64,000 nt of DNA from Pseudomonas lalkuanensis (GTDB lineage: Bacteria; Pseudomonadota; Gammaproteobacteria; Pseudomonadales; Pseudomonadaceae), in assembly GCF_008807375.1 (NCBI RefSeq), contig NZ_CP043311.1, forward strand, positions 5,250,001 through 5,314,000. The letters are read 5' to 3'. The position numbers were made by a program, and so were the translations under genes. The stretch's first letter is position 1. Each line of letters begins with the position of its first letter. The notes under the pieces are model-generated. The model was not told the DNA's origin. It saw only the letters and a program-made list of their open reading frames with translations, and made no database searches. Shown here one piece after another: positions 1 through 34,249 of this stretch.

Positions 1-14
1 CGATTTCGCAACAC

Positions 15-30
15 TGGCACGCTCGTTGCG
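15..30 (+). promoter_or_regulatory. Sigma-54 promoter of the secreted-protein/curlin operon
   Basis: TGGCACGCTCGTTGCG matches the -24/-12 sigma-54 consensus (TGGCAC-N5-TTGC), with GG and GC ten bases apart. The predicted start is near 42, giving a leader of about 60 bases to the first gene at 102. Any upstream activator sites would lie before the window begins. Confidence 0.8.
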
Positions 31-101
31 GAGGGCCGGGCAGCCAGCCTGTGGCACAGCGAATCCGCAGCAAGGCGCCCACATTGCAAGAGGGAAAGCT
101 C

Positions 102-1463
102 ATGCAACGCACACTCTCCAAGGCCACCACCTCGATCCTCCTCATCGTCGCGGCGGACCAGGCGCCCGCAGCCCTGTACGCCGTGGATCCCGGCCCCTAC
201 AACCCCGACATCGGTTCCTTCGCCGCCTGGTACCAGGACACCCACGGCCGCACCCTTGACCTCTGTCTGTCGAAGACGGTCAGTTCACGGGTAGCCGGCG
301 CTCCAGGTGCTCCCAGCTACATGTGCTCGCTGTTGCCGGAGCCGGGTGTCTACGACGACACGCAAGCGTTGGTGTTCCCCACCAACTTCCCGCCGGAAGC
401 CTTCTGGTTCACCGCCGACGCCGCCATCGCCGATGCAGCCAGTGGCATCGACCTGTCGTACGGGGCCGCCATCGAAGCGGCCTTTGCCGTTGAAGAACCC
501 GCGGAAGGCGATCAGATCAGCTTCGCGCGCATCCGTATCCGGGTGGATGTCCCCGCCATCGGCACCTACACCGTCACCCACCCCTATGGCGTGGAAGTCT
601 TCGAAGTCACTGCCGCCGAGTTCGGCGCCGACGGTGGCCGCGCCATCAACATGACCCGCGACATCGGCATTGGTGCGCCGAAGACCTATGACGGCGCCCT
701 GGGTGGCGACATCGGCCCGTTCCTGCGCAGCGTCAATGGCCCCTACATCGAGGTGAACCCGGAAACCAGCGCAACCGAACGCTTCATCGGCGACCCGAAC
801 ATCAACGAGCCGGTCACCGGCAGCCCGTTCAACACCAACTACGTGCGCATCCAGGGCCCCGCTGGCATCGACCTGCGCACCAACCTGTTCGCCATCTCCG
901 GCAAGCTCTCCGACGTGCAGCGCCCGACCCCGGTCATCGTCCAGCGCTCGACCTACTCGCGCGGCACCGGTGAAGCCGGTTCCAGCGCCCAGCAGGACGT
1001 CTTCGTGATGGCGCCGCCACCACCCGGTACGGCCCGCTATGACGACGCTGCGGGAGCCGCCGTGGCCATGACCGAGGCCAACGCCACCGGCAACTGGTAC
1101 GGCCAGTCCACGGGCAATCCTTCGACCCCGGCCAGCGTCACCATCCATGCCGACAACAGCATCGCCATCCCGGAAAACACGCCGACCGCTGTGAGCGCAC
1201 CGCTGGTGGATCTGGTTCGGATCCAGCGCGCCGAGTACAGCCTGAACTCCGGCCAACTGACCGTGGTGGCCAGCAGCAGCGACGAGACCAATCCGCCCAC
1301 GCTCACCGCCACGGCCAGCAGCGGCGCGAGCATCGGCTCGCTCACCGGCGACGGCGCGACCAGGACCCTGGTCACCGGCGTCACCCCCACCCCACCGGCA
1401 ACGGTCACCGTCACCTCGGGCAGCGGCGGCAGTGATACCGAAGAAGTGGTCATTCTTCCCTAA
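102..1463 (+). CDS. Secreted protein of unrecognised family, short form (copy 1)
   Basis: A 453-residue protein with an N-terminal signal peptide (hydrophobic stretch TTSILLIVAA, then a small-residue segment). The ATG at 102 is preferred over an in-frame GTG at 51 because AGAGGGA lies just before it. The first 280 residues or so form a module shared with the proteins at 1503, 34250 and 35588. Its landmarks are AAWYQD, LDLC and YMC (probable disulfide pair), LLPEPG, FP-N-P-E-FW, FARIRIRV, TYTVTHPYG, INMTRDIGIGAP, GDIGPFL, FIGDPN and VTGSPF. The C-terminal segment ends GGSDTEEVVILP, the point at which the long forms continue. It contains no catalytic motif I recognise. It is first in an operon with a second family member and curlins, so an extracellular, possibly T2SS-exported, structural role is an inference. 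Confidence 0.8.
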   Translation: MQRTLSKATTSILLIVAADQAPAALYAVDPGPYNPDIGSFAAWYQDTHGRTLDLCLSKTVSSRVAGAPGAPSYMCSLLPEPGVYDDTQALVFPTNFPPEAFWFTADAAIADAASGIDLSYGAAIEAAFAVEEPAEGDQISFARIRIRVDVPAIGTYTVTHPYGVEVFEVTAAEFGADGGRAINMTRDIGIGAPKTYDGALGGDIGPFLRSVNGPYIEVNPETSATERFIGDPNINEPVTGSPFNTNYVRIQGPAGIDLRTNLFAISGKLSDVQRPTPVIVQRSTYSRGTGEAGSSAQQDVFVMAPPPPGTARYDDAAGAAVAMTEANATGNWYGQSTGNPSTPASVTIHADNSIAIPENTPTAVSAPLVDLVRIQRAEYSLNSGQLTVVASSSDETNPPTLTATASSGASIGSLTGDGATRTLVTGVTPTPPATVTVTSGSGGSDTEEVVILP

Positions 1464-1502
1464 GCGAACCCGGAGCCGAGCGCTCAAGCGCCAGGAGGCA
1501 AC

Positions 1503-6131: not shown

Positions 6132-6977
6132 CTACTCGATCGACGCCTGCGCGCCCAGGTATTTCTTCAGCGAGGTCTGTTCCAGCGGCTGGTCGCCGGC
6201 GGCCTGCCACAGGTGGCGTTCCACGCCCTGGGCGATCAGGTGGGCCACGGCGGATTCGATGGCCGAGAGCACGCAGAGCTGCGCCGGCTCGTTGGTGGTG
6301 TAGCCGGCTTCGGCCTCCAGCAGTTCCTTGAACTCGATGAACTTGAACACGCTGGCGCTCTGCCCCACCGAGTAGATGGTCTTGGAGGTCATCACGTTGG
6401 CCAGGACCATGCCGCTGCGCACATCCACCGCGCGCAGGTTCACCGAGACCTGGTCCACGCGGTACTCGTGGGAGGCGCCGATGCCCAGGTAGCGGGCACC
6501 TTCGCCGCCGCTGCGGACGTTGGTGTCGTAGGCGATGATGCCGCCTTCCAGCAGCAGGTTGGCCGCCTGCAGTGGCGGCAGCTGGCTCTGGATGTTCGCC
6601 GGGGTGTTGGGCTTGTTCTGCGAGGCGCGGATGATCTTGCGTTCGGTCAGCACGTTCTGCAGGCCTTCGCGCTCCAGCACCATGAACCAGCCGCTGGCCT
6701 GCAGCGCGTCCACCAGCATGCTGGCGGCGCCCTGGGTAACGCTGGTGGAGAAGGAACTGGCCGGGGTCGGCTTGTACTGGCCGGTCTGGTCGCGGAACCC
6801 GTAAACCGCCGCCACCAGGCGCCCCTTGGGCCGGGGCAGGTTGAGCAGGTCGTAGTAGGTCGAGGCTCGCGGGGTCAGGGTCGGGATCTGGTCCTTGGTA
6901 TCCGCCGGCATCGGCTGGCGCAGACCGCAGCCTTGCAGGGTGGCGAGCAGCAGGACCAGCATCAGCACTCTGTTCAT
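6132..6977 (-). CDS. csgG: CsgG, outer-membrane curli export channel lipoprotein
   Basis: A 281-residue protein with a lipoprotein signal (LLATLQGCGLRQ, acylated Cys 17) and the conserved CsgG body: TYYDLLNLPRPKGRLVAAVYGFRDQTGQYKP, FSTSVTQGAASMLVDALQ, FMVLEREGLQNVLTERKIIRA, GGIIAYDTNVRSGGEGARYLGIG and VFKFIEFKELLEAEAGYT (quoted in parts across the protein). CsgG forms a nine-subunit channel that exports curlins. It is the last gene of the operon beginning with gspE, 27 bp after csgF. Confidence 0.95.
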   Translation of the reverse strand: MNRVLMLVLLLATLQGCGLRQPMPADTKDQIPTLTPRASTYYDLLNLPRPKGRLVAAVYGFRDQTGQYKPTPASSFSTSVTQGAASMLVDALQASGWFMVLEREGLQNVLTERKIIRASQNKPNTPANIQSQLPPLQAANLLLEGGIIAYDTNVRSGGEGARYLGIGASHEYRVDQVSVNLRAVDVRSGMVLANVMTSKTIYSVGQSASVFKFIEFKELLEAEAGYTTNEPAQLCVLSAIESAVAHLIAQGVERHLWQAAGDQPLEQTSLKKYLGAQASIE

Positions 6978-7004
6978 GGTCGTGGCTTCCTGTCGATGCC
7001 TGGA

Positions 7005-7409
7005 TTAGGGGAGCAGGCCGTTGACGACGACTTCCGAGACTTCGCCGGTGGCGCGATCGGTGATCTGGATGGTCAGTTCACCACCGTCGTCGATCATGTT
7101 GATGATGAAGGAGTCGGTGGTGAGGCTGCCGGTGTTGCCGTCCTCGATATTGGTCAGCAACTGCGACAGCAGGCGCGACTCCAGCGAGCTGGTGAAGCGC
7201 TGGAGGGCGGACTGCCGGCTGGCGGCGGACGAGCTGGAATCCGGGTCGTCGTGATCGTTCTGCGCCTGGGCGTTGTTCAGCAGCCAGGTGCCGTTCAGCG
7301 GGTTGCCGCCGAAGGCGGGGTTGACCGGGGTGTACACCAGTTCGGTGGCCTGGACCGATCCGACCAGGCCGAACCCGAGCAGCCACAGGGCAAGTCTGTT
7401 CTTGTTCAT
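7005..7409 (-). CDS. csgF: CsgF, curli nucleation/anchoring factor
   Basis: A 134-residue periplasmic or surface protein: signal peptide, then TELVYTPVNPAFGGNPLNG, the conserved CsgF N-terminal plug that binds CsgG. A flexible Asp/Ser-rich linker and a C-terminal domain (FIINMIDDGGELTIQITD) follow. Start ATG 7409 overlaps the csgE stop (ATGA), indicating translational coupling. In the family CsgF secures CsgB at the CsgG pore. Confidence 0.93.
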   Translation of the reverse strand: MNKNRLALWLLGFGLVGSVQATELVYTPVNPAFGGNPLNGTWLLNNAQAQNDHDDPDSSSSAASRQSALQRFTSSLESRLLSQLLTNIEDGNTGSLTTDSFIINMIDDGGELTIQITDRATGEVSEVVVNGLLP

Positions 7410-7798
7410 AGCTCGTCCCTCTCCATGTCGTGCGTGTCTTGCAGGAGGCGCTGCAGCTTCTGCTGGGCGATGGCCTCCAGCACCAGGTCGGCCGCCGCGT
7501 AGGCGGTGGGTTTGAGTTCCGCGGTGTTCGGCGGGAGAAACTGGCGGTAGAGCACGCGCTGCTCGTACTCCACCCAGATCAGGCTGCCCCAGCGGGCATC
7601 GGGGCGTTCGCGCACCACCAGGTTGAAATCCAGCTTGCTGGTGTCGCGCAGGCGCTCGCTGAAGGAGCGGTAGAAGTCGTGGCCGATGTGGGAAATCGTG
7701 TAGTCGATGACGAAGCCCATGATCTCGTCGTCTTCGGCGCGTGCCGTACCCAGCGCGCAGCACAGCACGAGCGCGGCCAGCCAGGGTGCGCGGCTCAT
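7406..7798 (-). CDS. csgE: CsgE, curli secretion specificity factor
   Basis: A 130-residue periplasmic protein with a signal peptide (to about residue 20) and the CsgE core: DEIMGFVIDYTISHIGHDFY, LNFxLVVRERP-type strand, GSLIWVEYEQRVLYRQFLPP and a C-terminal helix. CsgE caps the CsgG channel and delivers curlins. Its ATG at 7798 overlaps the stop of the preceding pseudopilin gene by ATGA. This fuses the curli secretion genes to the T2SS-like genes within one message. Confidence 0.92.
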   Translation of the reverse strand: MSRAPWLAALVLCCALGTARAEDDEIMGFVIDYTISHIGHDFYRSFSERLRDTSKLDFNLVVRERPDARWGSLIWVEYEQRVLYRQFLPPNTAELKPTAYAAADLVLEAIAQQKLQRLLQDTHDMERDEL

Positions 7799-8283
7799 GG
7801 CGTCCCCCCTTTCGGCGTGCCTTCCATGAAGGCCTTCTCGGCGACGAAGCGCCACTCGGCATAGCTGCCCATGCCCTCGAACTCCACCCACTGCGCGGGG
7901 AAGTGCGCCTGCTTCAGCGGCCTCTGGTGGGACTGGCTGTAGACGCCGGCGATGCGCCCGTCGAAGGAGTGGATCAGGCCCCAGTCGAGGCTGCCTGTCA
8001 CGGGGTCGGGATAGAGCCGGCGCAGGTGGCGCATGGCCTGGGGAAAGCGGTTGTCTTCCAGCAGATCCTCCAGGGCGGCGGGGTACTGGGACACGCCGTT
8101 CGACGCCCGGTAGTAGCTGCGCAGGGCCTGCGCATACTGGCTGCCGACCCAGAGCAGGTCGCGCTCGCGGGCACGCTGGCTGGCGGTGGACCAGAGCTGC
8201 CCCGCACCGGCCAGCGCCATCCCCATCAGCATGACGAGCAAGAGCACGCCGAGGTAGGTGAAACCCTGCTCACCAGTCCGCAT
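7795..8283 (-). CDS. Type II secretion/type IV pilus-like pseudopilin (third of three)
   Basis: A 162-residue protein with a prepilin leader (MRTGEQG then FTYLGVLLLVMLMGMAL), cleavable after Gly 7, followed by a hydrophobic helix. The body carries RERDLLWVGSQYAQALRSYY, typical of minor pseudopilins annotated as type II secretion proteins. Position +5 after cleavage is not Glu (FTYLG), a feature of GspK-like tip pseudopilins. Its start overlaps the preceding gene by 14 bp and its stop overlaps csgE. Confidence 0.75.
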   Translation of the reverse strand: MRTGEQGFTYLGVLLLVMLMGMALAGAGQLWSTASQRARERDLLWVGSQYAQALRSYYRASNGVSQYPAALEDLLEDNRFPQAMRHLRRLYPDPVTGSLDWGLIHSFDGRIAGVYSQSHQRPLKQAHFPAQWVEFEGMGSYAEWRFVAEKAFMEGTPKGGTP

Positions 8284-8644
8284 AGAGGCTCCCGTCCCGC
8301 GCGCGCCCGGGGGCGCCGCTCTTGACGTCGTAGACGCTGCCCGGCGCGCCGTCCGGTGGCGGCAGTGCCACCCACAGGTCAGTGCGCTCGGTCATCGGGT
8401 CCAGCGGCAGGGCACGCAGGTAGCGCTGGGCAACCAGCTCCTCGATCGAATCCGGATAGCGCCCGGTGTCGCCGTAGAACTGGTCCAGGGCCTCGCGCAT
8501 GACGGAAAGGCTCTGGCGCAGGGTGGTCTCCCTGGAGTTCTCCAGGCTGGAGAAATAGCGCGGCACGGCGATGGTCATCAGCGTGGCGATGATGGCCATG
8601 ACCACCAGCAGTTCGATGAGGGTGAAACCCTTCTGCCGAACCAT
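8270..8644 (-). CDS. GspG-like pseudopilin (second of three)
   Basis: A 124-residue prepilin-like protein: short leader MVRQKG, then FTLIELLVVMAIIATLMTIA with the conserved Glu 5 after the cleavage site. The globular part has GRYPDSIEELVAQRYLRALPLDPMT, like GspG/PulG. ATG 8644 is chosen (GGGAG upstream); an in-frame GTG lies at 8653. It is translationally coupled on both sides. Confidence 0.78.
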   Translation of the reverse strand: MVRQKGFTLIELLVVMAIIATLMTIAVPRYFSSLENSRETTLRQSLSVMREALDQFYGDTGRYPDSIEELVAQRYLRALPLDPMTERTDLWVALPPPDGAPGSVYDVKSGAPGRARDGSLYADW

Positions 8645-8646
8645 CT

Positions 8647-9117
8647 TCACCACTCCCGATACGCTGTGCCGTTGAGGCCGTCGCCCTTGGCCAGGGAATA
8701 GACGTCGAACACGTCCACGCCGGGGCGCGGGTCGTCCGCCGGGCTGGTATAGGCACGCAGGCCCCAGCTTTGCGCCGGCTCCTGGCGTGCATCGGCGAAG
8801 GGGTCGCGGGGGATGCGGCGCAGGAAGTAGATGCGCTCGCCCTTGATGCTGCGCAGGTCGCGCACGCCATCCACCAGCACCTGCAGCGACGGCGGGTAGC
8901 CGGAGCTGGCGGCGGACTTCTCGATATGCCCGGCGTCGGCTGCCAGCTTGTAGGCGTCGATGGCGTCGCGGATTTCGTAGAGGGCGACCTTGAGTTCCTG
9001 CTCCTTGCCCCGGCGGATCACCGTCTCGGCCAGCGGCGCGGCCATGCTGGCGAGCAGGCCGAGGATGGCCATGGCAATCACCAGTTCGATCAGCGAGAAA
9101 GCGGCCTGGCGTTGCAT
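8647..9117 (-). CDS. GspG/H-like pseudopilin (first of three)
   Basis: A 156-residue prepilin-like protein. The N terminus is MQRQAA then FSLIELVIAMAILGLLASMA, with Ala rather than Gly before the cleavage site; Glu 5 is present. Downstream is a GspG-type core (IRDAIDAYKLAADAG, SGYPPSLQVLVDGV, RIPRDPF, SWGLRAYTSPADD). It follows the secretin gene by three bases. A prepilin peptidase is needed but not encoded in the window, so the general PilD/XcpA enzyme is presumably shared. Confidence 0.75.
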   Translation of the reverse strand: MQRQAAFSLIELVIAMAILGLLASMAAPLAETVIRRGKEQELKVALYEIRDAIDAYKLAADAGHIEKSAASSGYPPSLQVLVDGVRDLRSIKGERIYFLRRIPRDPFADARQEPAQSWGLRAYTSPADDPRPGVDVFDVYSLAKGDGLNGTAYREW

Positions 9118-9120
9118 GGT

Positions 9121-10941: not shown

Positions 10942-11441
10942 AGCGCACTCCCCACGTCCAGGGACTGGGCAACGTCCAGCGGCAGATAGACCAGGGTCAT
11001 GCGCTCGGCGTCGATGCGCTGGACCTTGTAGGTCTTGTCGATCAGGTCGCCTTCGCGCACCACCAGCACCTGCTCGCCGCGCAGCAGGAAGACCTGCAGG
11101 TGCTGGCGATCATCCAGCTTGCCGATGAACTTGAACGGCAGCGGCGGCGCCGTGGGCTTCGGCGGCGGGGGTGGCGGCGCGGAGGCCATCGCCGTGGGCG
11201 GCGGAGGTGCCACGTACCAGCTCTGCACGGCGAACAGGTCGGCCGCCGGTACCAGGACTTCCGCCACCGCCGGCGCGACCGCAGCGGAGACCGGCGCGGC
11301 GGCCTCGGGCAAGGCCGCCAGCCGTTGCGGGCGCGGCATGGCCATGGGTTCGGCCTGCTCGCCGAAGAACTCAGGAAGCGCCGCCAGCACGGCGGCCGAG
11401 CCGAGGAAAGCCAACCAGAACAGACGGCGTGCCATGGTCAC
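10938..11441 (-). CDS. GspC/PilP-like periplasmic linker (secretion system X type)
   Basis: A 167-residue protein with an N-terminal transmembrane anchor (residues 5-23), a long Ala/Pro-rich linker with a PPPPPPKP run, and a C-terminal PilP/GspC homology-region fold (PLPFKFIGKLDDRQHLQVFLL, EQVLVVREGDLID, YKVQRIDAERMTLVYLPL). Proteins of this shape link the inner-membrane PilMNO-like platform to the secretin. Start and stop both overlap neighbours by four bases. Confidence 0.7.
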   Translation of the reverse strand: MTMARRLFWLAFLGSAAVLAALPEFFGEQAEPMAMPRPQRLAALPEAAAPVSAAVAPAVAEVLVPAADLFAVQSWYVAPPPPTAMASAPPPPPPKPTAPPLPFKFIGKLDDRQHLQVFLLRGEQVLVVREGDLIDKTYKVQRIDAERMTLVYLPLDVAQSLDVGSAL

Positions 11442-11989
11442 CTCGCCAGATACAGGGTCATGCGGATACGCCCTTCGAGTGCCGAATCGGCGATCTGCTT
11501 GCGTTGCAGTTCCACCTCTTCCAGGGCCAGGGCCGGCAATTGCGTCTGCAGGCCATGGAGGAAGCGGCGCAGTTGCGGATAGCTGCCGCGCACCGGCAGC
11601 AGTACCTGGTAGCGCGCCAAGCGGGTCTTGGGGTCGAGCCCGAGGGCGTATTCGCCACGGGCCAGGGAAATGCCCTCCTCGCCGGCCAGCGCGTAGATGC
11701 GGTCGATGGCGCCGGTGGCGTCCAGTTGTGCCGGCAGGTTGCGGCGGAAATCCTCCAGCTGCGCCGACGACGCGCCGCTGGCTGGCCGGCTGGCAGCCGG
11801 AGTGGCAGCCGCCGCGAGTTGTCCGCGATCCGCCACCAGCTGGCGCTCCAGGCTGGCCAGGGCCTGGCGCGCCGGCAGCAGACCCAGCACGGCGTAGCCC
11901 AGGGCTGCGAGCAGCAGCGCGCCACCGACCAGGCCCGGCCAGCCGAGACGGAGGGTCTGCTCGATGAGGATCAGCCTAGGGACGCGCAT
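11438..11989 (-). CDS. PilO/GspM-like inner-membrane platform protein
   Basis: A 183-residue protein: one transmembrane helix (about residues 17-36), a coiled-coil stretch (ARQALASLERQLVADRGQLAAAA) and a ferredoxin-like periplasmic domain (GISLARGEYALG, RYQVLLPVRGSYPQLRRFLHGL, LALEEVELQRKQ) typical of PilO/GspM. It overlaps the upstream PilN-like gene by 14 bp. Confidence 0.75.
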   Translation of the reverse strand: MRVPRLILIEQTLRLGWPGLVGGALLLAALGYAVLGLLPARQALASLERQLVADRGQLAAAATPAASRPASGASSAQLEDFRRNLPAQLDATGAIDRIYALAGEEGISLARGEYALGLDPKTRLARYQVLLPVRGSYPQLRRFLHGLQTQLPALALEEVELQRKQIADSALEGRIRMTLYLAR

Positions 11990-12521: not shown

Positions 12522-12522
12522 G

Positions 12523-18814: not shown

Positions 18815-18824
18815 GGCGTGCTCC

Positions 18825-24000: not shown

Positions 24001-26878
24001 TCCAACCATTGGCCGAGCCGTCGGAGGCGGTCAGGTCCCACTTCGGCAGGTGGATGTGCTGGCCGATGATGTCGGTGGGCGTGCGCACCTGGTAGTCATC
24101 CAGCTCATACACCGCCGGGATCAGGTTGGTGTGCTGGTACATGGTGCAGTCGAAGGTGTTCATCCGCATCACCAGCGGCTCCGGCGGCTGCTGCTTGGTG
24201 ATCACCGGCCAGGCGTCTTCCCAGAGCGCGAGGATGCGGGTCTGCGGGAAGTGGTAGCCGACCTTGTTGAACACCGCATCGAACTGGATGTTGGCGCCCT
24301 TGTAGACGCGGGGGCGGTCGGCGGTGAACGCCGAGCTGCCGGTGAAGGACTGGCCGTCGAGGGTGTCGCCGCTGTTGAAGCGCCCCAGGGACGAAGCCTG
24401 GGTCAGGCGCTTGCTGGTGTCGTCCATGCAGGGCTCGTAGTAGGGCGCGCCGGGAACCGGCAAGGCGCCGTTGGTGCGGAAATCCCTGGCATGCACCGCG
24501 CCGCCGGGCAGCACGGCGAAACTCGGGTGGCTGGCCTTGGCGTGAAAGGCCATTACCGACTGCTCGACGTCTGTGCCCTCCTCCGGCAGGAACACCGCCT
24601 TGGCGCGGTGGACCACCTTGGAGAAGTCCAGGGCGCTGGTGACCACTTCGGCCTCGCCACCGGCAGACAGACCGTCGAGGGTGTGGCGCGGCAGGCCGCC
24701 GTCCCAGCCGCCGGCCTGGGCCGGGTCGATGTTGGCCCACAGGGCCTTGCCCGAATCACGCAGGCTCTGGGCCTTGCCGCTGTCGAGCATGTCCAGTGGC
24801 GGGGTGCTGGGGCGCTGGCCAACGGTGTTTTCGATCCCACCGATCCAGAACGGGAAGCCGGGGTTCTTCAGCGTGCCATCGGCGTTGCGGTTGGCTTCAC
24901 TGCGGTCCACCAGGGCGACAGAACCCACAGCCCGGCGTTCAGCTTCGTGAGCGGAATCGTCGCCGCCTTCTTCGTGTTCGCCATCATCGTCGGCCACAGG
25001 TGCTTCGCTGTACTTGGGCACCACGGCCACCTTGCCCGGCATGGGCGGCATCGCCTTGCCCGGCAGCGGGACGATGGCGGGAATCGGCGTACCGGCAATG
25101 ATTTCGCCGTCCGGCAGGGCGCGGGCGCCGGGCGCCGGCAGGCCGCTGCGCAGCTCGAAGGGCTTCTTGTGGAAGCCGTCGTCGCCCTCTTCCGACACGG
25201 CCAGGCGGGTGCCTTCCTCGAACACGTCGTGGATGCGCCACATGGCCCACATGCCCTGGGCGAAGTGCGGGTAGAAGTGGCAGTGGTAGATGGCATCGCC
25301 CGAGGTGCGGTTGCGGTTGCCGGAACCGCCGTTGGCGATCTCGTAGGTGTAGCCCGAGCCCGGCCCTATGCCCTGGGCGTCGATGTAGTCGGAGTTGTCG
25401 TCATTGGGGTTGAACAGCCACTGGTGGCCGTGCAGGTGAAACACGTGCTGCTCGTAGCCGTTGTGGGTGTTGCGGAAGCGCACCGCATCGCCGATGTAGC
25501 TGTGGGCGACGTTGGACGGCTCGGCGGGGAACAGCGCCATGGTCGCCTTGACCCCGGTGGTGCCCTCCGGCGGCGCTTCGCCGGGGCGGATGTTTTCCAG
25601 GCCGACGTTGGCCGGGACGTCCACCTGCATGGCGATGTCGCCGACGGTGTGGGCGCTGAGGAAAAACTCTTCGTAGGCGCAGGACAGGCAGTCGTGCATG
25701 GGGCCGACGCCGAGTCGGTTGGCCACCACTTCGGCGCCGATGCCACCAGCGCCGTAGTTGATCATGAAGGCGTCACGGGTGGGCTCCAGCACGTGGCCGA
25801 ACACCGGGTCGGCCCAGTAGCCGGGGAAGGCCTGGGCCACGGCGTTCTCGTCATGGAAGACCGAGGAGAAATCGCGGAATGGCTCCAGCCGGTTGGGCAG
25901 CGCCGGATTGCGCTTGCCGTAGCTTTCCAGCGGGTAGGTGTACTGCGCGAAGGTGCCGTCGGGGTTGGGCCCCATGACCACGGCGTCGGTGTCGCTGGCG
26001 ATGATCTCGCCGTTGTCCATCATGGCGATCACCGGCAGGCCGGCCTTGCCTTCCTCGATCCAGGGCGAGGCCTGTGGATAACGCGCCTCGTAGTCGATGA
26101 TCGGCTGTCCGGCCGGCGTGCGGCCGGTGCTGGCCAGGCGCATCTCTTCTTCGGTCACCACGTTGCGGTAGGTGCGCGCGCCCTTGGGCAGCACCACCAC
26201 CTGGGCGAACAGGCCATTGGCAGTGTTGCCGCCGGTGCCCTCACCGCCGAAGGTGGCGCCGTAGCTGCTGGCGGCAAAGGCGCCCTCGCGCTCGGCATAC
26301 AGGGTGTAGCTGCGGCTGCCGCCGGGCGGGATCAGGCTGTTGGGGTTGCGGCCAGCATTGGTGGCGATATCGCCGATGTCGTTCACCGCCTGCAAGCCGT
26401 TGACCTGGAAGCCGACATGGCGGTCGGCGACCTGCTCGTCCTTCTTGAACAGCGGGCCTTGCGGGTTGTGCGGGTTGGCCTGGTAGGCCAGCAGGTTCTG
26501 CAGGTTGATGGTCAGGCAATCCCCCGCGGCCACCCGCAGCACCAGCGGGCGTGGGCGCTTGTCCGGACGCAGCGCCACTTCGCCTGGCACCGCCGCACCG
26601 CCCTGGGTGAGCGGTACTTCATTGCGGTCCACCACGTCGCGGCGCAGGGCGAACATCATGCCGTTGATGTTCTGCGCACCCAGGCGGTTGAACATCAGTG
26701 GCTGGTCCAGGGCCACCACATTGGCCACCAGGTTGCGTTCGCAGCGCACGGCCGCCTGCGCGTCCCCGGTGGAGAAGAGCGCGCCCAGCAACAGCAGGGC
26801 ACCGCCCAGGTGAAGGGATGCCCCCTGGGCACCAAGGGATTTGGGGGTTGCACTGTTCGAAGGGTTAGTCCGGTTCAT
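21077..26878 (-). CDS. Giant multicopper oxidase, McoA/MofA-type candidate Mn(II) oxidase
   Basis: A 1933-residue secreted protein. ATG 26878 has GAGGT nine bases upstream. The signal peptide includes LHLGGALLLLGALFSTGDAQA. Copper motifs are spread over several cupredoxin domains: HVFHLHGHQW near residue 480, the type-1/trinuclear block YHCHFYPHFAQGMWAMW near 533, FTHDHFGPSTHQQLG near 1045, and HAGGHEEEHNVTLHGVKW near 1308. Two LRxAAGDC(L/V)(T/N)I-type cupredoxin starts (near residues 117 and 1540) suggest a duplicated layout. Size, domain spread and neighbours (SCO chaperones, cytochrome c, chaperone) fit McoA of P. putida GB-1 and MofA of Leptothrix, which are implicated in Mn(II) oxidation. 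The MnxG type is the alternative. Substrate is inferred, not shown. Confidence 0.85.
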   Translation of the reverse strand: MNRTNPSNSATPKSLGAQGASLHLGGALLLLGALFSTGDAQAAVRCERNLVANVVALDQPLMFNRLGAQNINGMMFALRRDVVDRNEVPLTQGGAAVPGEVALRPDKRPRPLVLRVAAGDCLTINLQNLLAYQANPHNPQGPLFKKDEQVADRHVGFQVNGLQAVNDIGDIATNAGRNPNSLIPPGGSRSYTLYAEREGAFAASSYGATFGGEGTGGNTANGLFAQVVVLPKGARTYRNVVTEEEMRLASTGRTPAGQPIIDYEARYPQASPWIEEGKAGLPVIAMMDNGEIIASDTDAVVMGPNPDGTFAQYTYPLESYGKRNPALPNRLEPFRDFSSVFHDENAVAQAFPGYWADPVFGHVLEPTRDAFMINYGAGGIGAEVVANRLGVGPMHDCLSCAYEEFFLSAHTVGDIAMQVDVPANVGLENIRPGEAPPEGTTGVKATMALFPAEPSNVAHSYIGDAVRFRNTHNGYEQHVFHLHGHQWLFNPNDDNSDYIDAQGIGPGSGYTYEIANGGSGNRNRTSGDAIYHCHFYPHFAQGMWAMWRIHDVFEEGTRLAVSEEGDDGFHKKPFELRSGLPAPGARALPDGEIIAGTPIPAIVPLPGKAMPPMPGKVAVVPKYSEAPVADDDGEHEEGGDDSAHEAERRAVGSVALVDRSEANRNADGTLKNPGFPFWIGGIENTVGQRPSTPPLDMLDSGKAQSLRDSGKALWANIDPAQAGGWDGGLPRHTLDGLSAGGEAEVVTSALDFSKVVHRAKAVFLPEEGTDVEQSVMAFHAKASHPSFAVLPGGAVHARDFRTNGALPVPGAPYYEPCMDDTSKRLTQASSLGRFNSGDTLDGQSFTGSSAFTADRPRVYKGANIQFDAVFNKVGYHFPQTRILALWEDAWPVITKQQPPEPLVMRMNTFDCTMYQHTNLIPAVYELDDYQVRTPTDIIGQHIHLPKWDLTASDGSANGWNYEDGTLSPASVVERIHAIREYNHCTGADARDGSAECPVARQHPYFGQFGRTDWLGARTTLQRWFADPLINTYNVDRGLGNIFTHDHFGPSTHQQLGLYATVLTEPAGSSWYHAETGQPLGSGRQDGGPTSWQAVIATGDLDGDGKNDSFREFFMEYSDFQHAYEAGVYVGAGPDGVPDAGAYPTSMDSFRYAINPPVRQSGSNLFESVREAAGGELPGCPSRPCPQAISVDDPGMFVVNYRNEPLALRVFDPNKVAPDGKPGMQADGLAGDLAYALQTRTDRAIPALNLAPSAISSASGPTGASTVFPPHINRAGDLPGDPFTPMLRAYSGDNVRLRMHAGGHEEEHNVTLHGVKWLHSGTGFGNSGNSGWKASQMVGISEQMGFVAPVAMMSGNTAMEAADYLYNLDASIEGYWNGIWGVMRNYTQPRNDLFALPNNPRPVSSRNTTQFDGVCPRTSPNPSGIGTRTTVQRNYEVAAVLANDVLPNTLGLTIGDPAGDRQHAGGPLNPQGGTLVFNPRQVTIPQVTVVDEEDGEVFTIGGQSGPLHDPTAILYVRKADLDPSTGKLKPGVPVEPLVLRAAAGDCVNITLENRLPLVMPDLPTYAVMQGLVKRDRNSAKGSTTFNNNMMRPSSHVGLHTQLLAYDITRSDGFNVGINPVQTVEPRGAAGGAWPSKTYKFYVGHLEREGKPVTQLGRSVDNITATPVEFGGFNLLPADPVKQGQKGLSGAMSIAPLGATWSEDASSRAAATVTPLSGTPYRDFSLVLHKSLNMRWASGRPVENMASEGFGVPADPKDNSGMAVNYRSEPLWYRFAKAPDAPFGHARGQGWGDVPDAHMAYSNERVGGDPVTPIMKVRPGQPFRTHVTMPSGGSRGMTFQLDGHVWAFNPFLSERIDQWGYPQKNAGIGSLRFGLNPAALYIGAQESVLPAAHFSLSIPSAGGANGVPGDYLYRDYAAFGNVGGVWGLLRVTNEP

Positions 26879-26932: not shown

Positions 26933-26948
26933 AGCAATGCCTGTGCCA
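26933..26948 (-). promoter_or_regulatory. Sigma-54 promoter of the multicopper oxidase gene
   Basis: TGGCACAGGCATTGCT on the minus strand, identical over all 16 bases to the promoter at 20758-20773. The predicted start is near 26922, giving a leader of about 44 bases. A GGGCAGGACTGCCC palindrome overlaps the predicted start region. Confidence 0.85.
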
Positions 26949-27010
26949 CCACAGGAAAGCCAATGGATTCAGATAGTTATGCCAGACAACAGGGGAATGA
27001 CCAGTCGTTT

Positions 27011-27049
27011 CCCCACCCGATTCCCACCCAGTTCCCCGGTTTTCCGGGG
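27011..27049. promoter_or_regulatory. Upstream activator region with phased C-tracts
   Basis: CCCC/CCC tracts begin at 27011, 27023 and 27034, followed by GGGG at 27046. The last pair forms CCCC-GGTTTTCC-GGGG, a variant of the 6-base-spaced repeat, centred about 119 bp upstream of the predicted oxidase start. Confidence 0.55.
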
Positions 27050-27052
27050 GGC

Positions 27053-27159: not shown

Positions 27160-27213
27160 CGGTGCGTCATTTGGGGCGATGATCGTGGAGGCGCCTTCAG
27201 GCACAGAAAACGC

Positions 27214-27246
27214 CCCCGCATCTGGGGAATTTCCCCACTAGCGGGG
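27214..27246. promoter_or_regulatory. Two distal CCCC-N6-GGGG sites
   Basis: CCCCGCATCTGGGG (27214-27227) and CCCCACTAGCGGGG (27233-27246) have centres 19 bp apart. The second overlaps the 3' end of the transglycosylase gene, whose stop codon is at 27238-27240. They lie about 300 bp upstream of the oxidase start and may act as distal enhancers. Confidence 0.55.
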
Positions 27247-27873
27247 TCGTTTCGCGTCGGCCTGGAGGCGTTGGTAGTGCCCCAGGACACTGGGCACGTA
27301 ACGCTGGGTTTCCGGGTAGGGAGGAATGACGCTGCCATAGGCGAGGACCGCCCCGGGGCCCGCGTTGTAGGCGGCCAGGGCCAGGGAAAGGTTGTTGTCG
27401 AACATCTTCATCATGCGCTTGAGGTAGCGCGCGCCGCCACGAACATTGGCGGCCGGGTCGAACACGTCGTGCACGCCCAGGTCCTTCGCGGTATCTGGCA
27501 TGAGCTGCATCAGGCCGGCGGCGCCCTTGGGCGAGAGGGCCAAGGGGTCGTAGTTGGATTCGGTGGTGATCACGGCATGCAGCAGTTCCGCCGGCAGGTC
27601 GTACTCGAAAGCCGCCTGGGCCACGATCAGGGCGTAGCGCGGCGCCTTTCTCGGCGCCCTGCGCGGGAGCTTGCGCGTTGGCTGGATGAAGTTCGGGGCC
27701 CTGGCCAGCACCGGTCTCTCGCGGGCCACGCGCACCAGATTCCGGTCCGTTCGGTGAATGTTGGTGAGGATGATGCTGCCGTTGGTGGAGACCACCTGAT
27801 AGATGTCGGAGCGGGCTTCGAACGCGGTAGTCGCAAGGATGCTGAACAGCACCAGGGTGGGCACTTTCATCAT
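27238..27873 (-). CDS. Lytic transglycosylase (SLT domain)
   Basis: A 211-residue secreted protein: signal peptide (to about residue 22), a short beta segment (SDIYQVVSTNGSIILTNIHR, DUF4124-like), a basic linker, and an SLT domain with catalytic Glu in HAVITTESNYDP, GAAGLMQLMPDTAKDLGV and LALAAYNAGPGAV. These enzymes cleave peptidoglycan and commonly accompany envelope-spanning secretion machines to make room for them. It is transcribed away from gspG-gspF from a shared intergenic region and has its own sigma-54-like promoter. Confidence 0.88.
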   Translation of the reverse strand: MMKVPTLVLFSILATTAFEARSDIYQVVSTNGSIILTNIHRTDRNLVRVARERPVLARAPNFIQPTRKLPRRAPRKAPRYALIVAQAAFEYDLPAELLHAVITTESNYDPLALSPKGAAGLMQLMPDTAKDLGVHDVFDPAANVRGGARYLKRMMKMFDNNLSLALAAYNAGPGAVLAYGSVIPPYPETQRYVPSVLGHYQRLQADAKRPR

Positions 27874-27926: not shown

Positions 27927-27942
27927 AGCAAAGCACGTGCCG
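27927..27942 (-). promoter_or_regulatory. Sigma-54 promoter of the transglycosylase gene
   Basis: CGGCACGTGCTTTGCT on the minus strand keeps GG/GC with ten-base spacing; only the first base departs from TGGCAC-N5-TTGCT. The predicted start near 27916 leaves a 43-base leader. I see no perfect CCCC-N6-GGGG site at the expected distance. Confidence 0.6.
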
Positions 27943-27986: not shown

Positions 27987-28002
27987 GTGCACAGCTCTTG
28001 CA
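27987..28002 (+). promoter_or_regulatory. Possible sigma-54 promoter of gspG-gspF
   Basis: GTGCACAGCTCTTGCA resembles TGGCAC-N5-TTGCA but has TG in place of the usually invariant GG at -24. An imperfect CCC-N6-GGG site lies about 127 bp upstream (27880-27891). Weak on its own; context supports it. Confidence 0.35.
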
Positions 28003-30317: not shown

Positions 30318-30830
30318 TCAGGAGCTCTTCTTGACCTGTTTAAAAGGCTCATCGGAGCTGGCCAGGGGACGGCGGCGGTCGGAGAGCACCCAGGCGCCAT
30401 CGTAGAGCCTCAGCGGGAAGCTCACTTCGCCGCCACGGCGCCTTTCCACCGGCTCCTGTTCGTGCATTGCCGCGCTGGGCAGGCCGTGGAGGACCACGCT
30501 CCCCAGTTCGTGCAGCGGGAAGGGCTTGAGGAGGATGATGTCGATGTTGCGCTCGATGGCACGGTTGCACACTTCGATGCTGGGGTGCGCGGTCATCAGT
30601 ACCGCTTCGCAGCTGTGCAGCCCGCGAATGGCATCGAAGACATCGAAGCCGGTCATGTCCGGCAAGCGATAGTCGAGCACCAGCAGGTCGGGCCTGAACT
30701 CCACCGCCAGCTGCTGAGCAATGGCGCCGCTGGCTGCGGTGCGGACTTCACAGCCGAGCATCTCCAGGTAGGTCTGGAAGTTTCCGGCGAGGATTTCTTC
30801 ATCGTCGACTATCAGTACTTTCTTCGACAC
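30318..30830 (-). CDS. Single-receiver response regulator lacking a DNA-binding domain
   Basis: A 170-residue protein. GTG 30830 has GGGGAG nine bases upstream. The receiver domain spans residues 4-120: acidic pocket D9/D10, phospho-acceptor D53 in LLVLDYRLPDMTG, and Lys in LLKPFPLHEL. The segment EEILAGNFQTYLEMLGCEV closely resembles EILADNFCTYLQRRQFDV of the NtrC-type protein at 31019, suggesting duplication and perhaps a shared kinase. The last 50 residues (RGGEVSFPLRLYDGAWVLSD) are not a known output domain. A sigma-54-like promoter and a CCCC/GGGG repeat lie upstream, so it is probably regulated by its neighbour. It could act as a phosphate sink or adaptor. Confidence 0.8.
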   Translation of the reverse strand: MSKKVLIVDDEEILAGNFQTYLEMLGCEVRTAASGAIAQQLAVEFRPDLLVLDYRLPDMTGFDVFDAIRGLHSCEAVLMTAHPSIEVCNRAIERNIDIILLKPFPLHELGSVVLHGLPSAAMHEQEPVERRRGGEVSFPLRLYDGAWVLSDRRRPLASSDEPFKQVKKSS

Positions 30831-30890: not shown

Positions 30891-30906
30891 TGCACGTTCC
30901 GAGCCA
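30891..30906 (-). promoter_or_regulatory. Probable sigma-54 promoter of the receiver gene
   Basis: TGGCTCGGAACGTGCA on the minus strand has GG and GC at the right spacing but CTC in place of CAC. The predicted start is near 30880. The inverted repeat at 31001-31015 lies about 127 bp upstream. Confidence 0.5.
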
Positions 30907-31000: not shown

Positions 31001-31015
31001 CCCCGTAAAACGGGG
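31001..31015. promoter_or_regulatory. Upstream activator-like site CCCC-N7-GGGG
   Basis: CCCCGTAAAACGGGG, a variant with a seven-base spacer. A further pair CCCC...GGGG (30979-30996) lies next to it on the promoter side. It sits just beyond the 3' end of the NtrC-type gene. Confidence 0.5.
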
Positions 31016-31018
31016 CAT

Positions 31019-32449
31019 TCAGTGCTGGTGACGATCGGGGCGCTCCAGGCCCAGCTTGTCGATGCGATAACGCAGCATGTCGCGGGTGAGGCCGAGCATG
31101 CGGGCGGATTTCGAGATGTTCCAGTCGGTCTTGCCCAGCACCTTCACCACCAGGTCGCGTTCGGCGTCGGACAGGCTCATGTTCTCGTCTTCCAGCCCCA
31201 GCGGGCCGCCGGTCACCATGGACGCGGCGGCCTCGGTGACGCCCGCGCCCGCCAGCAGGTCTCGGCAGATAGTGAGCTGCTCGGGGCCGATGACAGTGCC
31301 CGGCGCCAGCAGCACGGTCTGTTCCAGCATGTTGCGCAGTTCACGCACGTTGCCCGGCCAGCTGTAGCCCCTGAGCACGGCCTTGGCTTCCGGGCTGAAA
31401 CGCAGCCCCGGCTTGCCGTAGCGCTTGCCGTGCTGGGCGGCGAAGTGCTCGGCCAGGGTCAGGACGTCATCGCTGCGGGCGCGCAGCGGCGGCACCTTGA
31501 TGGTGATGATGCGCAGGCGGAAGAACAGGTCGCGGCGGAACTTGCCCTCCTGGACCATCTGTTCGAGGTTGCAGTTGGTGGCGCTGATGATGCGCAGGTT
31601 GACCTTGCGCTCGCGCACCGAACCCAGGCGGCGGATGGTGCGGTCTTCCAGCAGCTTGAGCAGCTTGGCCTGGAGCAGCAGGTCGATCTCGCCCACCTCG
31701 TCGAGGAACAGGGTGCCGCCGTCCGCGGCTTCCACCAGGCCGACGCGACGGTCCTTGGCGTCGGTGAAGGCACCCTTCTCGTGGCCGAAGAGTTCGGCCT
31801 CCAGCAGGTGCGACGGAATCGACGCGCAGTTGAACTCGACGAAGGGGCCCTTTCTGCGCGCGCCGTCGAAGTGCAGGGCACGGGCCACCAGTTCCTTGCC
31901 GGTGCCGGTCTCGCCTTCGATCAGCACCACCGGCAGGTCTTCGCCGGCCATGCGCTCTTCGGCGGCCAGCACCTGGCGCACCATGTCCTTCATGGTGCGC
32001 ATCGGCTCGGAGTCGCCGATCAGCCCGGTGAGCCCGGAGTCCTGGGCTTCACGCCGCTGGTAGAACGACAGCCGTTGTTCCTGTCGGCGCGCCTCCAGCA
32101 CCTTGTCCACCACCAGCTTGAGCTCGGCCAGGGCCACCGGTTTGGTCAGGTAGTCGCTGGCGCCGGCCTTCATGGCCTCCACCGCGCCCTGCACGTTACC
32201 GTGGCCGGTGATCATGATGACCTTGAGCTGCTCGTCCATGGCCCGGGCACGACTGATCAGGTCGCAACCGCTCATACCCGGCAAGCAATAGTCGGTGAGG
32301 ACCAGGTCCGGGTGCTGCGCCTCGATGATCGGCAGGGCATCCTCGGCCGAACTGCAGACCATGACATCGAACTGGCGCCGTTGCAGGTAGGTGCAGAAGT
32401 TGTCGGCCAGGATCTCGTCGTCTTCGACGATCAGAATGCTGTTAGCCAT
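31019..32449 (-). CDS. NtrC-family sigma-54 response regulator (MnxR-like)
   Basis: A 476-residue protein. The receiver domain has E9/D10/D11 and D53 (LVLTDYCLPGMSG). The AAA+ domain has Walker A GETGTGKE (179-186), Walker B GGTLFLDE (244-251) and the arginine-finger region LRNMLEQ. The C-terminal Fis-type helix-turn-helix includes NISKSARMLGLTRDMLRYRI. The sigma-54 contact loop reads GAFTDA (226-231) instead of the usual GAFTGA. It lies 6 bp after the kinase gene as a two-component operon. In P. putida GB-1 the comparable MnxR is required for Mn(II) oxidation. Sigma-54 promoters with shared upstream sites around it make it the likely master activator of this region. Confidence 0.88.
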   Translation of the reverse strand: MANSILIVEDDEILADNFCTYLQRRQFDVMVCSSAEDALPIIEAQHPDLVLTDYCLPGMSGCDLISRARAMDEQLKVIMITGHGNVQGAVEAMKAGASDYLTKPVALAELKLVVDKVLEARRQEQRLSFYQRREAQDSGLTGLIGDSEPMRTMKDMVRQVLAAEERMAGEDLPVVLIEGETGTGKELVARALHFDGARRKGPFVEFNCASIPSHLLEAELFGHEKGAFTDAKDRRVGLVEAADGGTLFLDEVGEIDLLLQAKLLKLLEDRTIRRLGSVRERKVNLRIISATNCNLEQMVQEGKFRRDLFFRLRIITIKVPPLRARSDDVLTLAEHFAAQHGKRYGKPGLRFSPEAKAVLRGYSWPGNVRELRNMLEQTVLLAPGTVIGPEQLTICRDLLAGAGVTEAAASMVTGGPLGLEDENMSLSDAERDLVVKVLGKTDWNISKSARMLGLTRDMLRYRIDKLGLERPDRHQH

Positions 32450-32455: not shown

Positions 32456-33865
32456 TCATCCCCCTGCCGTGGCCCTGAAAGTCAGGTGCACGTTGGTGCC
32501 GGCGTTCTCCCGGCTGTCGATGCTGACGTCGCCACCGAAGCGCTCGATGATCTTGCGCACCAGCACCAGGCCGACGCCCAGGCCGCCACGCTTGGTGGTG
32601 TGGAAGGGTTTGAAAGCCATCTCCAGCATGGCCGGCGACATGCCGCTGCCGGTGTCGCTGATGGTCAGGGTGAGTAGCCGGCGGCGCGCATCCGACTCCA
32701 GGCAGATGGCCAGGCGGCCGCCGCGCGGCATGGCTTCGATGGCGTTGGAAAGCACGCTGCCCAGCAGTTGCTGCAGCAGCACCGGGTGGCTGACCACCTT
32801 GGGCGCCTGGCAGGTCTGCCATTCCAGTTCGATGCCGGCATGGCGGATCTGCGGTTCGTAGGCGGAGAGGGTCTCTTCCAGGGCGACCGTGAGGTCCACC
32901 GGCTCCTGGTCGCCGGAGAGCGGGCGGGCCGACATCAGCAGCTCGCGCACCCACTTCGACATGCGGTCGACCTGGGTGATGATGTCGCCCAGGTTCTTGT
33001 GCAGCGGCCCCGGGTCCACCTCCAGCGCCAGCTCGGCACTGGAGCGAATGGAAGCCAGCGGGTTGCGCAGGCTGTGGGCGACGGCGGTGGACATTTCGCC
33101 GAGCAGGGCCAGGGTTTCGTTTTCCACCAGTTGCCGCTGCTGGTCGTCCACCAGGCGCGAGGCGTGGCGGACGAACCAGAACAGGCTGAGGTAGATGACC
33201 GCGCCACCCAGCGCGGTGGCGGTCCAGAGCAGGACGAGGCCGCGATTCATGCGGGCGATCAGGTCCACCGGTTCCTTGTAGATCTCGATGACCGAGAGCA
33301 CTTCGCCCCGGCTGTCCTGCAGCGGAATGAAGCTCTCCAGGTAGAGCCCCTTGGGCGCCTGCAGGAAGTAGCGCTCCACCGGGCGCTCGCCGCCGTGACG
33401 GTCGACGGTGACGGTGCTGCGGGACTGGATGGCTTCCTTGAGGCGGCTGTCGCTGGACGCGTGGCGGCCCACCAGTTCCGGGCGGGTGGACCAGATCACC
33501 ATGCCGTCGGGCGCGTAGACGCTGGCCAGCAGCACATCAGGCAAGCGCACGATGTGGTCGAAGAATTCCTCGTGGGACTTCACCAATTGCTCGTGGGATA
33601 CGCCGAGGCGCGCGCCGTCGACGCGCTTGTCGAGGAACTCGCTGAGGCTCAAGCCCGGCGAGAAGTTGCCGTGGATGACTTCGACGTCAGCAATGGATTT
33701 GATGAACTGGGCGCTGAGCATGGCATCGCGGTCGATGCTCTCGCGCATGAGAAAACGGGTTGCCGCCGAGCCGAGCAGAATGGCCACCGCGAGGATGATC
33801 ACCAGGCTCACCAGGGAAAACCAGCGGAACAGATTGAAGGGCTTGGCAGCCATCGCCATCTTCAT
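32456..33865 (-). CDS. Sensor histidine kinase (MnxS-like) with periplasmic sensing domain
   Basis: A 469-residue membrane kinase. Transmembrane helices lie at about 14-36 and 209-231, flanking a periplasmic domain of about 170 residues (VYAPDGMVIWSTRPELVGRH, a PDC/CACHE-like feature). The H-box AVAHSLRNPL has His 264; the N, G1 and G2 boxes are LSNAIEAMP, DTGSGMS and GGLGVGLVLV. GGGAGG precedes ATG 33865. It forms an operon with the NtrC-type regulator. The signal is unknown; by analogy with MnxS1/MnxS2 it may respond to manganese or redox state. Confidence 0.87.
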   Translation of the reverse strand: MKMAMAAKPFNLFRWFSLVSLVIILAVAILLGSAATRFLMRESIDRDAMLSAQFIKSIADVEVIHGNFSPGLSLSEFLDKRVDGARLGVSHEQLVKSHEEFFDHIVRLPDVLLASVYAPDGMVIWSTRPELVGRHASSDSRLKEAIQSRSTVTVDRHGGERPVERYFLQAPKGLYLESFIPLQDSRGEVLSVIEIYKEPVDLIARMNRGLVLLWTATALGGAVIYLSLFWFVRHASRLVDDQQRQLVENETLALLGEMSTAVAHSLRNPLASIRSSAELALEVDPGPLHKNLGDIITQVDRMSKWVRELLMSARPLSGDQEPVDLTVALEETLSAYEPQIRHAGIELEWQTCQAPKVVSHPVLLQQLLGSVLSNAIEAMPRGGRLAICLESDARRRLLTLTISDTGSGMSPAMLEMAFKPFHTTKRGGLGVGLVLVRKIIERFGGDVSIDSRENAGTNVHLTFRATAGG

Positions 33866-34050
33866 CGAGACCTCCCCGTGGGTGACCGTCGGTTCGCTCG
33901 CAAGGCGAGTGTCAGAAGGGCCGCCGGCCGGTCCGGCAACTCCTGCGCCGGCCCGGTAGTTATAGCGCAGGCCCCGTCGCCCGCTGCCCTACCGCTGGGT
34001 GGCGGGAGAACGGAAGCTCCGGAAATTCCCCATTTTCCCACCCACTTTCC

Positions 34051-34064
34051 CCCCAGATCTGGGG
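34051..34064. promoter_or_regulatory. Upstream activator site CCCC-N6-GGGG
   Basis: CCCCAGATCTGGGG is a fully palindromic 14-mer and probably the best single match to the consensus. It is centred about 122 bp upstream of the predicted start. C-tracts at 34028, 34037 and 34041 precede it. Confidence 0.7.
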
Positions 34065-34153
34065 AGCCAGTCCCCAGCGGCCATCGAGCACGCTCGTGCC
34101 GTCGAACGCGCGATTTTTCGCCCTCCCCGCGAAACAGAGCGGGCGGAACCGAA

Positions 34154-34169
34154 TGGCATGGGAGTTGCG
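34154..34169 (+). promoter_or_regulatory. Sigma-54 promoter of the second secreted-protein pair
   Basis: TGGCATGGGAGTTGCG matches the -24/-12 consensus with correct spacing. The predicted start is near 34180, about 70 bases before ATG 34250. Confidence 0.78.
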
Positions 34170-34249
34170 CCCTTACCCTGTCAACGACGGGCCTCCCGCC
34201 CATCGAAGCCGGACAAACGGCGAAGTTCATCGACTGGAAGGGCGACAAC

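Follow-up and report, generated by a model that had tools for sequence, protein, structure and literature searches.

We examined a 64,000-nucleotide stretch of the Pseudomonas lalkuanensis genome (contig NZ_CP043311.1; hereafter the window, G000:C1:5250001-5314000, from a complete 6.06-Mb genome), in which a gene for a multicopper manganese (Mn) oxidase, mnxG, lies among genes for a type II secretion system (T2SS)-like apparatus, for curli components, for secreted proteins and for an NtrC-type response regulator with its presumed kinase. Transcription units at this locus are preceded by sigma-54 (-24/-12) promoters, and upstream of five of these promoters stands an inverted repeat, CCCC-N6-GGGG, which an earlier sequence-only reading had put forward as a shared control circuit and as the possible operator of MnxR-type regulators. 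That proposal is supported by conservation of the element upstream of mnxG in other genera and in two of three betaproteobacterial regions, as well as by its co-occurrence with MnxR, and we consider it very probable from these comparisons that CCCC-N6-GGGG is the best-conserved part of the enhancer, or upstream activating sequence, for MnxR-type sigma-54 response regulators.

With the pattern TGGCACG-N4-TTGCW, mismatches being counted, all eight proposed -24/-12-like sites (15, 15045, 20758, 26933, 27927, 27987, 30891 and 34154) were found in place, with one or two mismatches at seven promoters and three at 27987; judged as TGGCAC-N5-TTGC-like sigma-54 promoters, seven of the eight likewise have no more than two. 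The 20758 and 26933 promoters do share 16 identical bases, both reading TGGCACAGGCATTGCT. Ahead of five promoters, CCCC-N6-8-GGGG is present with centres from -107 to -127 relative to the expected start, and the second gspE site expected at -148 is also there. As for a single circuit embracing all eight promoters, the idea is supported for these five and probably for promoter 15, which has a near copy, ACCCAGTTCTGGGG, 93 bp upstream (window -92..-79, just left of the window; L067), the core of which, CCCCAGTTCTGGGG, is found at the 34154-type promoter of relatives; promoter 15 probably belongs to the operator-linked set. The weak match at 27987 has only a 3+3 version, CCCCTGTCAGGG at 95 bp, overlapping the leader of the divergent 27238-27873 gene, and its membership is doubtful, while the 27927 promoter has neither CCCC-N5-8-GGGG nor CCC-N6-GGG at 60-180 bp upstream. 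This last promoter, that of the transglycosylase gene (27238-27942), is of a CGGCAC type, and many genomes have similar elements roughly 1 kb ahead of mnxG; in the regions scanned, not one of these had CCCC-N5-9-GGGG within 220 bp, and the transglycosylase may be served by another activator or by a shared distal site.

Table 1. Promoters, operator-like sites and genes at the Mn oxidase, secretion and curli locus (window coordinates)
Feature	Position	Strand	Remarks
Sigma-54 promoter of genes 102-5644	15..30	+	
Secreted protein	102-1463	+	no Pfam/NCBIfam match
Big_9/cadherin (Ig-domain) protein	1503-3731	+	domain match
Curlin-repeat proteins, CsgB/CsgA-like	3742-4212, 4268-5644	+	
CsgG	6132-6977	-	end of gspE row
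CsgF	7005-7409	-	end of gspE row
CsgE	7406-7798	-	end of gspE row
Pilin-like genes	8647-9117, 8270-8644, 7795-8283	-	by eye; gspE row
Secretin	9121-10941	-	gspE row
Unnamed genes after gspE	12523-13281, 11976-12521, 11438-11989, 10938-11435	-	gspE row
gspE	13295-14983	-	first gene of row 6132..14983, read from 15045 promoter
Sigma-54 promoter of gspE row	15045..15060	-	TGGCACGATGCGTGCG
Integration host factor (IHF)-like site	15087..15099	-	AATCAGCGACTTA, 0 mismatches to WATCARNNNNTTR
gspE operator	15135..15149	-	centre -107
Second gspE operator	15176..15190	-	centre -148
Downstream part of mnxG operon	15285..20690	-	SurA-N (15285), cytochrome c/Peripla_BP (15934), SCO1 (17505), SCO1 (18131), YVTN beta-propeller (18825-20690)
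Sigma-54 promoter between mnxG and beta-propeller gene	20758..20773	-	TGGCACAGGCATTGCT
IHF-like site	20792..20804	-	CAACCTGTTGAAT, 1 mismatch
Operator of 20758 promoter	20848..20863	-	centre -107
mnxG, multicopper Mn oxidase	21077..26791	-	1904 residues by coding model
mnxG sigma-54 promoter	26933..26948	-	TGGCACAGGCATTGCT
IHF-like site	26967..26979	-	TAACTATCTGAAT, 1 mismatch; many relatives have it at this position
mnxG operator	27034..27050	-	CCCCGGAAAACCGGGG (N8), centre -119, then GGGTGGGAAT repeats
Two distal mnxG operator-like sites	27213..27246	-	centres -298 and -317
SLT lytic transglycosylase	27238..27873	-	3' end overlapped by one distal mnxG operator-like site
Sigma-54 promoter of transglycosylase gene	27927..27942	-	
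Weak sigma-54-like match before gspG	27987..28002	+	
gspG-like pseudopilin; gspF	28037-28459; 28456-29655	+	
Stand-alone receiver-domain protein	30318..30830	-	
Sigma-54 promoter	30891..30906	-	TGGCTCGGAACGTGCA
Operator of 30891 promoter	31001..31015	-	CCCCGTTTTACGGGG (N7), centre -127
MnxR-type regulator A	31019..32449	-	receiver, sigma-54 AAA+, Fis-type helix-turn-helix
Sensor histidine kinase	32456..33865	-	presumed partner of regulator A; adjoins 31019 gene
Operator of 34154 promoter	34049..34064	+	CCCCAGATCTGGGG, centre -122
Sigma-54 promoter	34154..34169	+	TGGCATGGGAGTTGCG
Secreted protein	34250-35545	+	61% identical to 102-1463 product
Big_9/cadherin protein	35615-37792	+	like 1503-3731

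Within this genome, the composite CCCC-N5-9-GGGG-N65-95-TGGC-N8-TGC gave 15 rows, or 11 distinct places in 6.06 Mb, and five of the 11 are the five window promoters, against an expectation of 0.03 given the density in the rest of the genome; an off-register control, with the promoter spacing shifted by one base, gave seven rows and none in this locus. With the 49 other strict TGGCAYN5TTGC matches of the genome as controls, CCCC-N5-8-GGGG was found 60-180 bp upstream of 5/8 window promoters vs. 0/49 controls (Fisher p 1.3e-5), and CCC-N6-GGG at the same distances at 6/8 vs. 2/49, with promoter 15 and 27987 counting here. The dyad stands at preferred distances and is enriched over other sigma-54 promoters, as is typical of an enhancer. 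Since the motif was suggested by those same five promoters, it takes the relatives to provide an independent test. Outside the window, a strict sigma-54 match at G000:C1:5328889 (L250, position 2001), with CCC-N6-GGG at 76 bp, precedes a gene for a 99-residue protein without a Pfam family and may be a further target; in G005 and G015, a composite match about 49 kb from mnxR is possibly the same place.

For that independent test, a search of 398 Pseudomonadaceae genomes gave mnxG in 66 of them, in 71 places. Seventy of the 71 upstream regions were examined (G299:C24 was left out), 66 had a strict -24/-12 match, and these were reduced by 8-mer overlap to 52 promoters, 43 of them outside the genus of the source genome. 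CCCC-N5-8-GGGG occurred within 230 bp at 53/66 promoters (shuffle mean 5.2). Looked for in other Mn-oxidising relatives, the operator proved to be kept upstream of mnxG in other genera, at 34 of the 43 non-redundant promoters vs. 2.6 expected (maximum 6 in 200 shuffles), and when all palindromic 4+4 dyads with spacings of 0-16 were ranked over the 230 bp before the mnxG promoter, CCCC-N6-GGGG came first (28/43 vs. 1.1 expected).

The description of the operator as one inverted repeat did not survive this comparison: judging from a reading of 21 promoters, the palindrome seems to belong to an array of GGGGAA half-sites rather than to stand alone. GGGA pairs 12 bp apart numbered 42 in 52 promoters vs. 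0.8 expected, CCCC/GGGG pairs appear again roughly one turn further out, and the consensus approximates TCCCCA-N4-YGGGGAA, accompanied by additional GGGGAA half-sites at intervals of about 12 bp, the centres lying mostly near -95, -107, -119 and -132; several mnxG promoters without a perfect palindrome retain GGGGAA repeats. Between array and promoter, a scan with the IHF consensus WATCARNNNNTTR found a site with at most one mismatch within 75 bp of 43/52 mnxG promoters vs. 6.9 expected, and 38 of those 43 sites fell into one 5-bp bin, 30-34 bp before the promoter.

Across genomes, the element also goes together with the regulator. MnxR-type proteins, called at E <=1e-130, are present in 71/398 Pseudomonadaceae genomes, including all 66 with mnxG, and a strict operator-plus-promoter match was found in 54/71 genomes with MnxR vs. 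18/327 without it (Fisher p 7e-36); nine of the 17 misses have a site before mnxG at another spacing. Where a match occurred in the absence of MnxR, the frames after the site, translated in seven genomes (L258, L259, L260, L264, L269, L279, L280), were in no case like mnxG or the secreted protein; some we take by eye to resemble FliF, TRAP transporter and FliL proteins, the names themselves not having been searched. A second target, not set beforehand, emerged by eye in eight P. putida-type genomes, where a secreted protein of about 445 residues like those encoded at 102-1463 and 34250-35545 follows the element; in one genome, again by eye, a relative of the 18825-20690 gene follows the element. 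The G355 secreted protein is 64% identical (tblastn) to that of 102-1463, and relatives of the Ig-domain gene and of the two curlin genes come next. G009 and G012, without mnxG, keep the regulator and the 34154-type site. This secreted family, which has no Pfam or NCBIfam match, is common in Pseudomonas as hypothetical protein and stands repeatedly under the operator; a structure prediction for the 34250-35545 product (mean predicted local distance difference test score 68.7) is all-beta with a poor N-terminal part, and gives the protein no name.

Conservation extends to another class. Nine betaproteobacterial draft genomes encode relatives of the regulator at 56-61% identity, with a kinase gene before the regulator at 9/9 loci, and four of the nine encode MnxG. 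Three upstream regions of these mnxG genes were readable (the G405 copy starts at a contig edge), and two of the three (L335 and L342, the L342 promoter having been picked by eye) carry CCCC-N6-GGGG as part of a similar array, 112 bp ahead of a sigma-54-like site; the sites in these metagenome-assembled genomes read CCCCAGCATTGGGG and CCCCAGCCTTGGGG, and the mnxG products are 58% and, for a fragment, 56% identical. Relatives of window genes lie near the betaproteobacterial regulator as well, namely a stand-alone receiver in L032, L033, L034, L058 and L059, pilin-like genes in L034, L035 and L059, and a secretin plus transglycosylase in L035; operator sites are near the regulator in L032, L035 and L059, and relatives of the 30318-30830 receiver adjoin operators in L032 and L059. 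In L344, L348 and L349, betaproteobacterial secreted-looking proteins share a TGFIQEA motif, the gene of each lying behind an operator and a sigma-54 promoter of near-identical sequence.

Which regulator reads this element is complicated by a second copy. The 31019-32449 product (PF00072, PF00158, PF25601 and PF02954) has the domains of an NtrC-type sigma-54 response regulator and, as had been remarked, is the only such activator found in the window; 1.7 kb beyond the left edge of the window, however, there is a 71%-identical paralog. This paralog, B (G000:C1:5246879-5248270, window -3127..-1730), adjoins a kinase-like gene at -1730..-273 (L067), and the pair diverges from genes 102-5644, a layout that repeats the divergent one of 31019-33865 with 34250-37792 and looks like the result of a module duplication. 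The MnxR-type protein of the source genome is close to that of Pseudomonas (Metapseudomonas) resinovorans and relatives, and 10 of the 12 MnxR-bearing genomes of the genus have both A and B. In trees built without GB-1 MnxR, B clusters with proteins of P. alloputida, P. fluorescens, P. alkylphenolica and P. citronellolis, with A outside; fork support was 96/89 in the tree of a chosen subset of 20 loci and 12 named proteins, and 100/99 in the other tree, from which the relatives L027-L031 (identical in protein to some of L069-L080) were left out. The B-type regulator of G355 comes after two kinase-like genes, and passages of PMC11409713 describe mnxS1, mnxS2 and mnxR of P. putida GB-1 as one putative operon. 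As judged from its sequence, B rather than A is the P. putida-type MnxR; given the tree grouping of B and the gene order in G355, the 31019 regulator is therefore not.

The recognition-helix core [TS]RDMLR is present in all A, B, family and betaproteobacterial proteins compared and in none of five outgroups. Because this core is identical in A and B, both would be expected to read one operator, and one operator for both regulators is the simplest reading. An alternative, which we regard as unlikely though deserving of weight, is that B alone reads the operator, which would leave the 31019 protein in charge of just its neighbours or of something else; the clustering of B with P. putida/P. fluorescens-type MnxR, whose genomes' mnxG mostly has the same operator, and the position of G355 B after two kinase genes, like GB-1 mnxS1/mnxS2/mnxR, would agree with this, yet A-type regulators adjoin the operator in G009 and G012, where mnxG is missing, and the shared recognition-helix core speaks against it too.

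A 3+3 version of the element was found at candidate genes for a second Mn oxidase. We took as mcoA-like those open frames of 1135-1206 codons that matched PF07731, which were present in 6/10 P. putida-type genomes (G342 has two), no GB-1 sequence being among those compared. Seven of nine candidate upstream regions had a strong sigma-54 promoter, three of the seven being mutually related; two 949-codon candidates (L323, L324) had no sigma-54 match. None of the seven mcoA-like genes with a strong promoter has the 4+4 palindrome within 260 bp, and all seven have CCC-N6-GGG at 87-93 bp vs. 1.3 expected in 200 bp, N6 being the commonest spacing. According to passages of PMC11930936, mcoA expression in GB-1 starts later than that of mnxG and involves fewer cells. 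A weaker mcoA operator would fit this later, narrower expression and would offer a simple candidate reason for it.

Several observations weigh against assigning the element to MnxR as its enhancer. The bare motif is not enriched in the window (17 matches to CCCC-N5-9-GGGG vs. 19.3 expected) and CCCC-N6-GGGG is frequent genome-wide (101 matches vs. 60 for the reversed pattern); the one-mismatch palindrome (N5-9, 50-130 bp) matches 7/8 window promoters and also 11/49 controls, so that the exact form has to be required, and the loose composite alone proves little since it is present in 18/18 genomes of the genus, with MnxR or without. Four of 70 mnxG upstream regions have no strict sigma-54 match, 13/66 mnxG promoters have no exact 4+4 palindrome with N5-8, and mcoA-like promoters have the 3+3 version alone. 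Eight genomes with MnxR have no site by these patterns (G009, G069, G080, G169, G279, G290, G351 and G354), although in G009 a site stands before a promoter of weaker match and in G351 there is a 3+3 site, with none in G069; moreover, the sole match of G014, which has MnxR, has a near-identical counterpart in G016, which does not, and some co-occurrence matches, that of G014 included, are probably background. Among the betaproteobacteria, operator plus sigma-54 was matched in 5/9 genomes and not in the other four, the G402 match looks unrelated, and the L341 mnxG fragment has no array upstream. No IHF-like site was found in the 90 bp scanned at promoters 15, 30906 and 34154, nor at 27942 and 27987, of which the first three count here. 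Finally, the genomes share ancestry, and the Fisher and shuffle figures overstate independence.

These points leave room for other readings. We hold it to be rather improbable that the element is bound by some other protein, an unlinked repressor or activator co-inherited with the Mn cluster: CCCC...GGGG is simple enough to suit several proteins, and the link to MnxR is drawn by sequence comparison, but the element keeps preferred distances to sigma-54 promoters, co-occurs with MnxR even where mnxG is missing and lies near the regulator in some Betaproteobacteria. Still less credible is that the G-rich repeats act as a G-quadruplex DNA structure rather than as a protein site; a quadruplex pattern was present in 10/52 representative mnxG promoters vs. 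2.3 in shuffles, whereas outside the genus of the source it was found in 1/43 vs. 1.5 expected, with the palindrome in 34/43 and a spacing peak at N6-7, and we rejected this reading on that count. Chance pairs of CCCC and GGGG in a GC-rich genome, for which the frequencies of the bare motif given above might be invoked, were rejected as next to impossible in view of 0/49 controls, 34/43 promoters of other genera, co-occurrence with MnxR and conservation at the level of the class.

As for the units that MnxR binding to the enhancer array would control, genes 102-5644 on the plus strand are probably one operon, and the gspE row (6132..14983) is a putative second one. The mnxG gene was named by its size, Cu-oxidase domain and GB-1-like operon order rather than by direct comparison to GB-1 MnxG. 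Passages of PMC8218464 list beta-propeller lactonase-family, SCO, ABC and SurA genes in the GB-1 mnxG operon; as the genes after mnxG here are of the same kinds, the 20758 promoter, one of those thought to head separate transcription units, is better taken as internal to the mnxG operon on the minus strand. The stand-alone receiver of 30318-30830, with its own operator and sigma-54 promoter, could be a phosphate sink or tie the system to another pathway.

Comparison with known systems helps to place these findings. NtrC-type regulators bind upstream dyads and activate the sigma-54 polymerase, and their enhancers (those of NtrC, NifA, ZraR and others) are made up of palindromic half-sites spaced by about one turn, which lie ahead of the -24/-12 promoter and often have IHF in between. 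The present element resembles them in such half-sites, at mnxG mostly with an IHF-like site before the promoter, and differs from the GCAC-type site of NtrC in having G4/C4 half-sites in an array of about 12 bp. The curli and T2SS parts are recognizable by CsgE, CsgF, CsgG, curlin repeats, GspE/F/G and a secretin; E. coli curli are under CsgD/sigma-S control, and unlike there, CsgEFG here end a T2SS-like row headed by a sigma-54 promoter and operator. As in MnxS1/MnxS2/MnxR of GB-1, an NtrC-type regulator with kinase gene(s) is linked to mnxG and its operon, whereas here there are two kinase-regulator modules, of which that inside the window is not the P. putida-type copy. The predicted sigma-54 dependence agrees with passages in which rpoN::Tn5 abolishes Mn oxidation in strain MS-1 (PMC11409713) and PmnxG of GB-1, with IHF and sigma-54 sites, is Mn-induced in stationary phase (PMC11930936). 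No MnxR operator was found in the portions examined of the MnxR/mnxG literature (PMC11409713, PMC11930936, PMC8218464, PMC9765421), nor did literature searches list one; the founding MnxR paper (AEM 2010) may propose one.

We propose that Mn or a Mn-linked signal acts via the kinases, an MnxS-type kinase phosphorylating MnxR, whose Fis-type helix-turn-helix dimers would occupy the half-sites and oligomerise there; at promoters that have an IHF site, bending of the DNA would bring the AAA+ hexamer to the sigma-54 RNA polymerase. A single signal could thereby turn on mnxG and its operon, the gspE-csgEFG row, the curlin subunits, the secreted proteins and the stand-alone receiver. More tentatively, and with somewhat less than even confidence, we surmise that MnxR is more than an oxidase switch and heads an old extracellular-matrix programme of T2SS-like export, curli and secreted Ig-type proteins, with common roots in the Gamma- and Betaproteobacteria, which Mn oxidases joined when they acquired its operator. 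The module would have been duplicated in this lineage to leave two kinase-regulator pairs on one operator, and operator strength (4+4 at mnxG vs. 3+3 at mcoA-like genes) would decide which of the two oxidases is expressed first. A concrete operator makes the MnxR regulon searchable in any genome and gives base-level targets, and it would connect the Mn oxidase with a system for secretion and curli and with a secreted protein family yet to be characterised.

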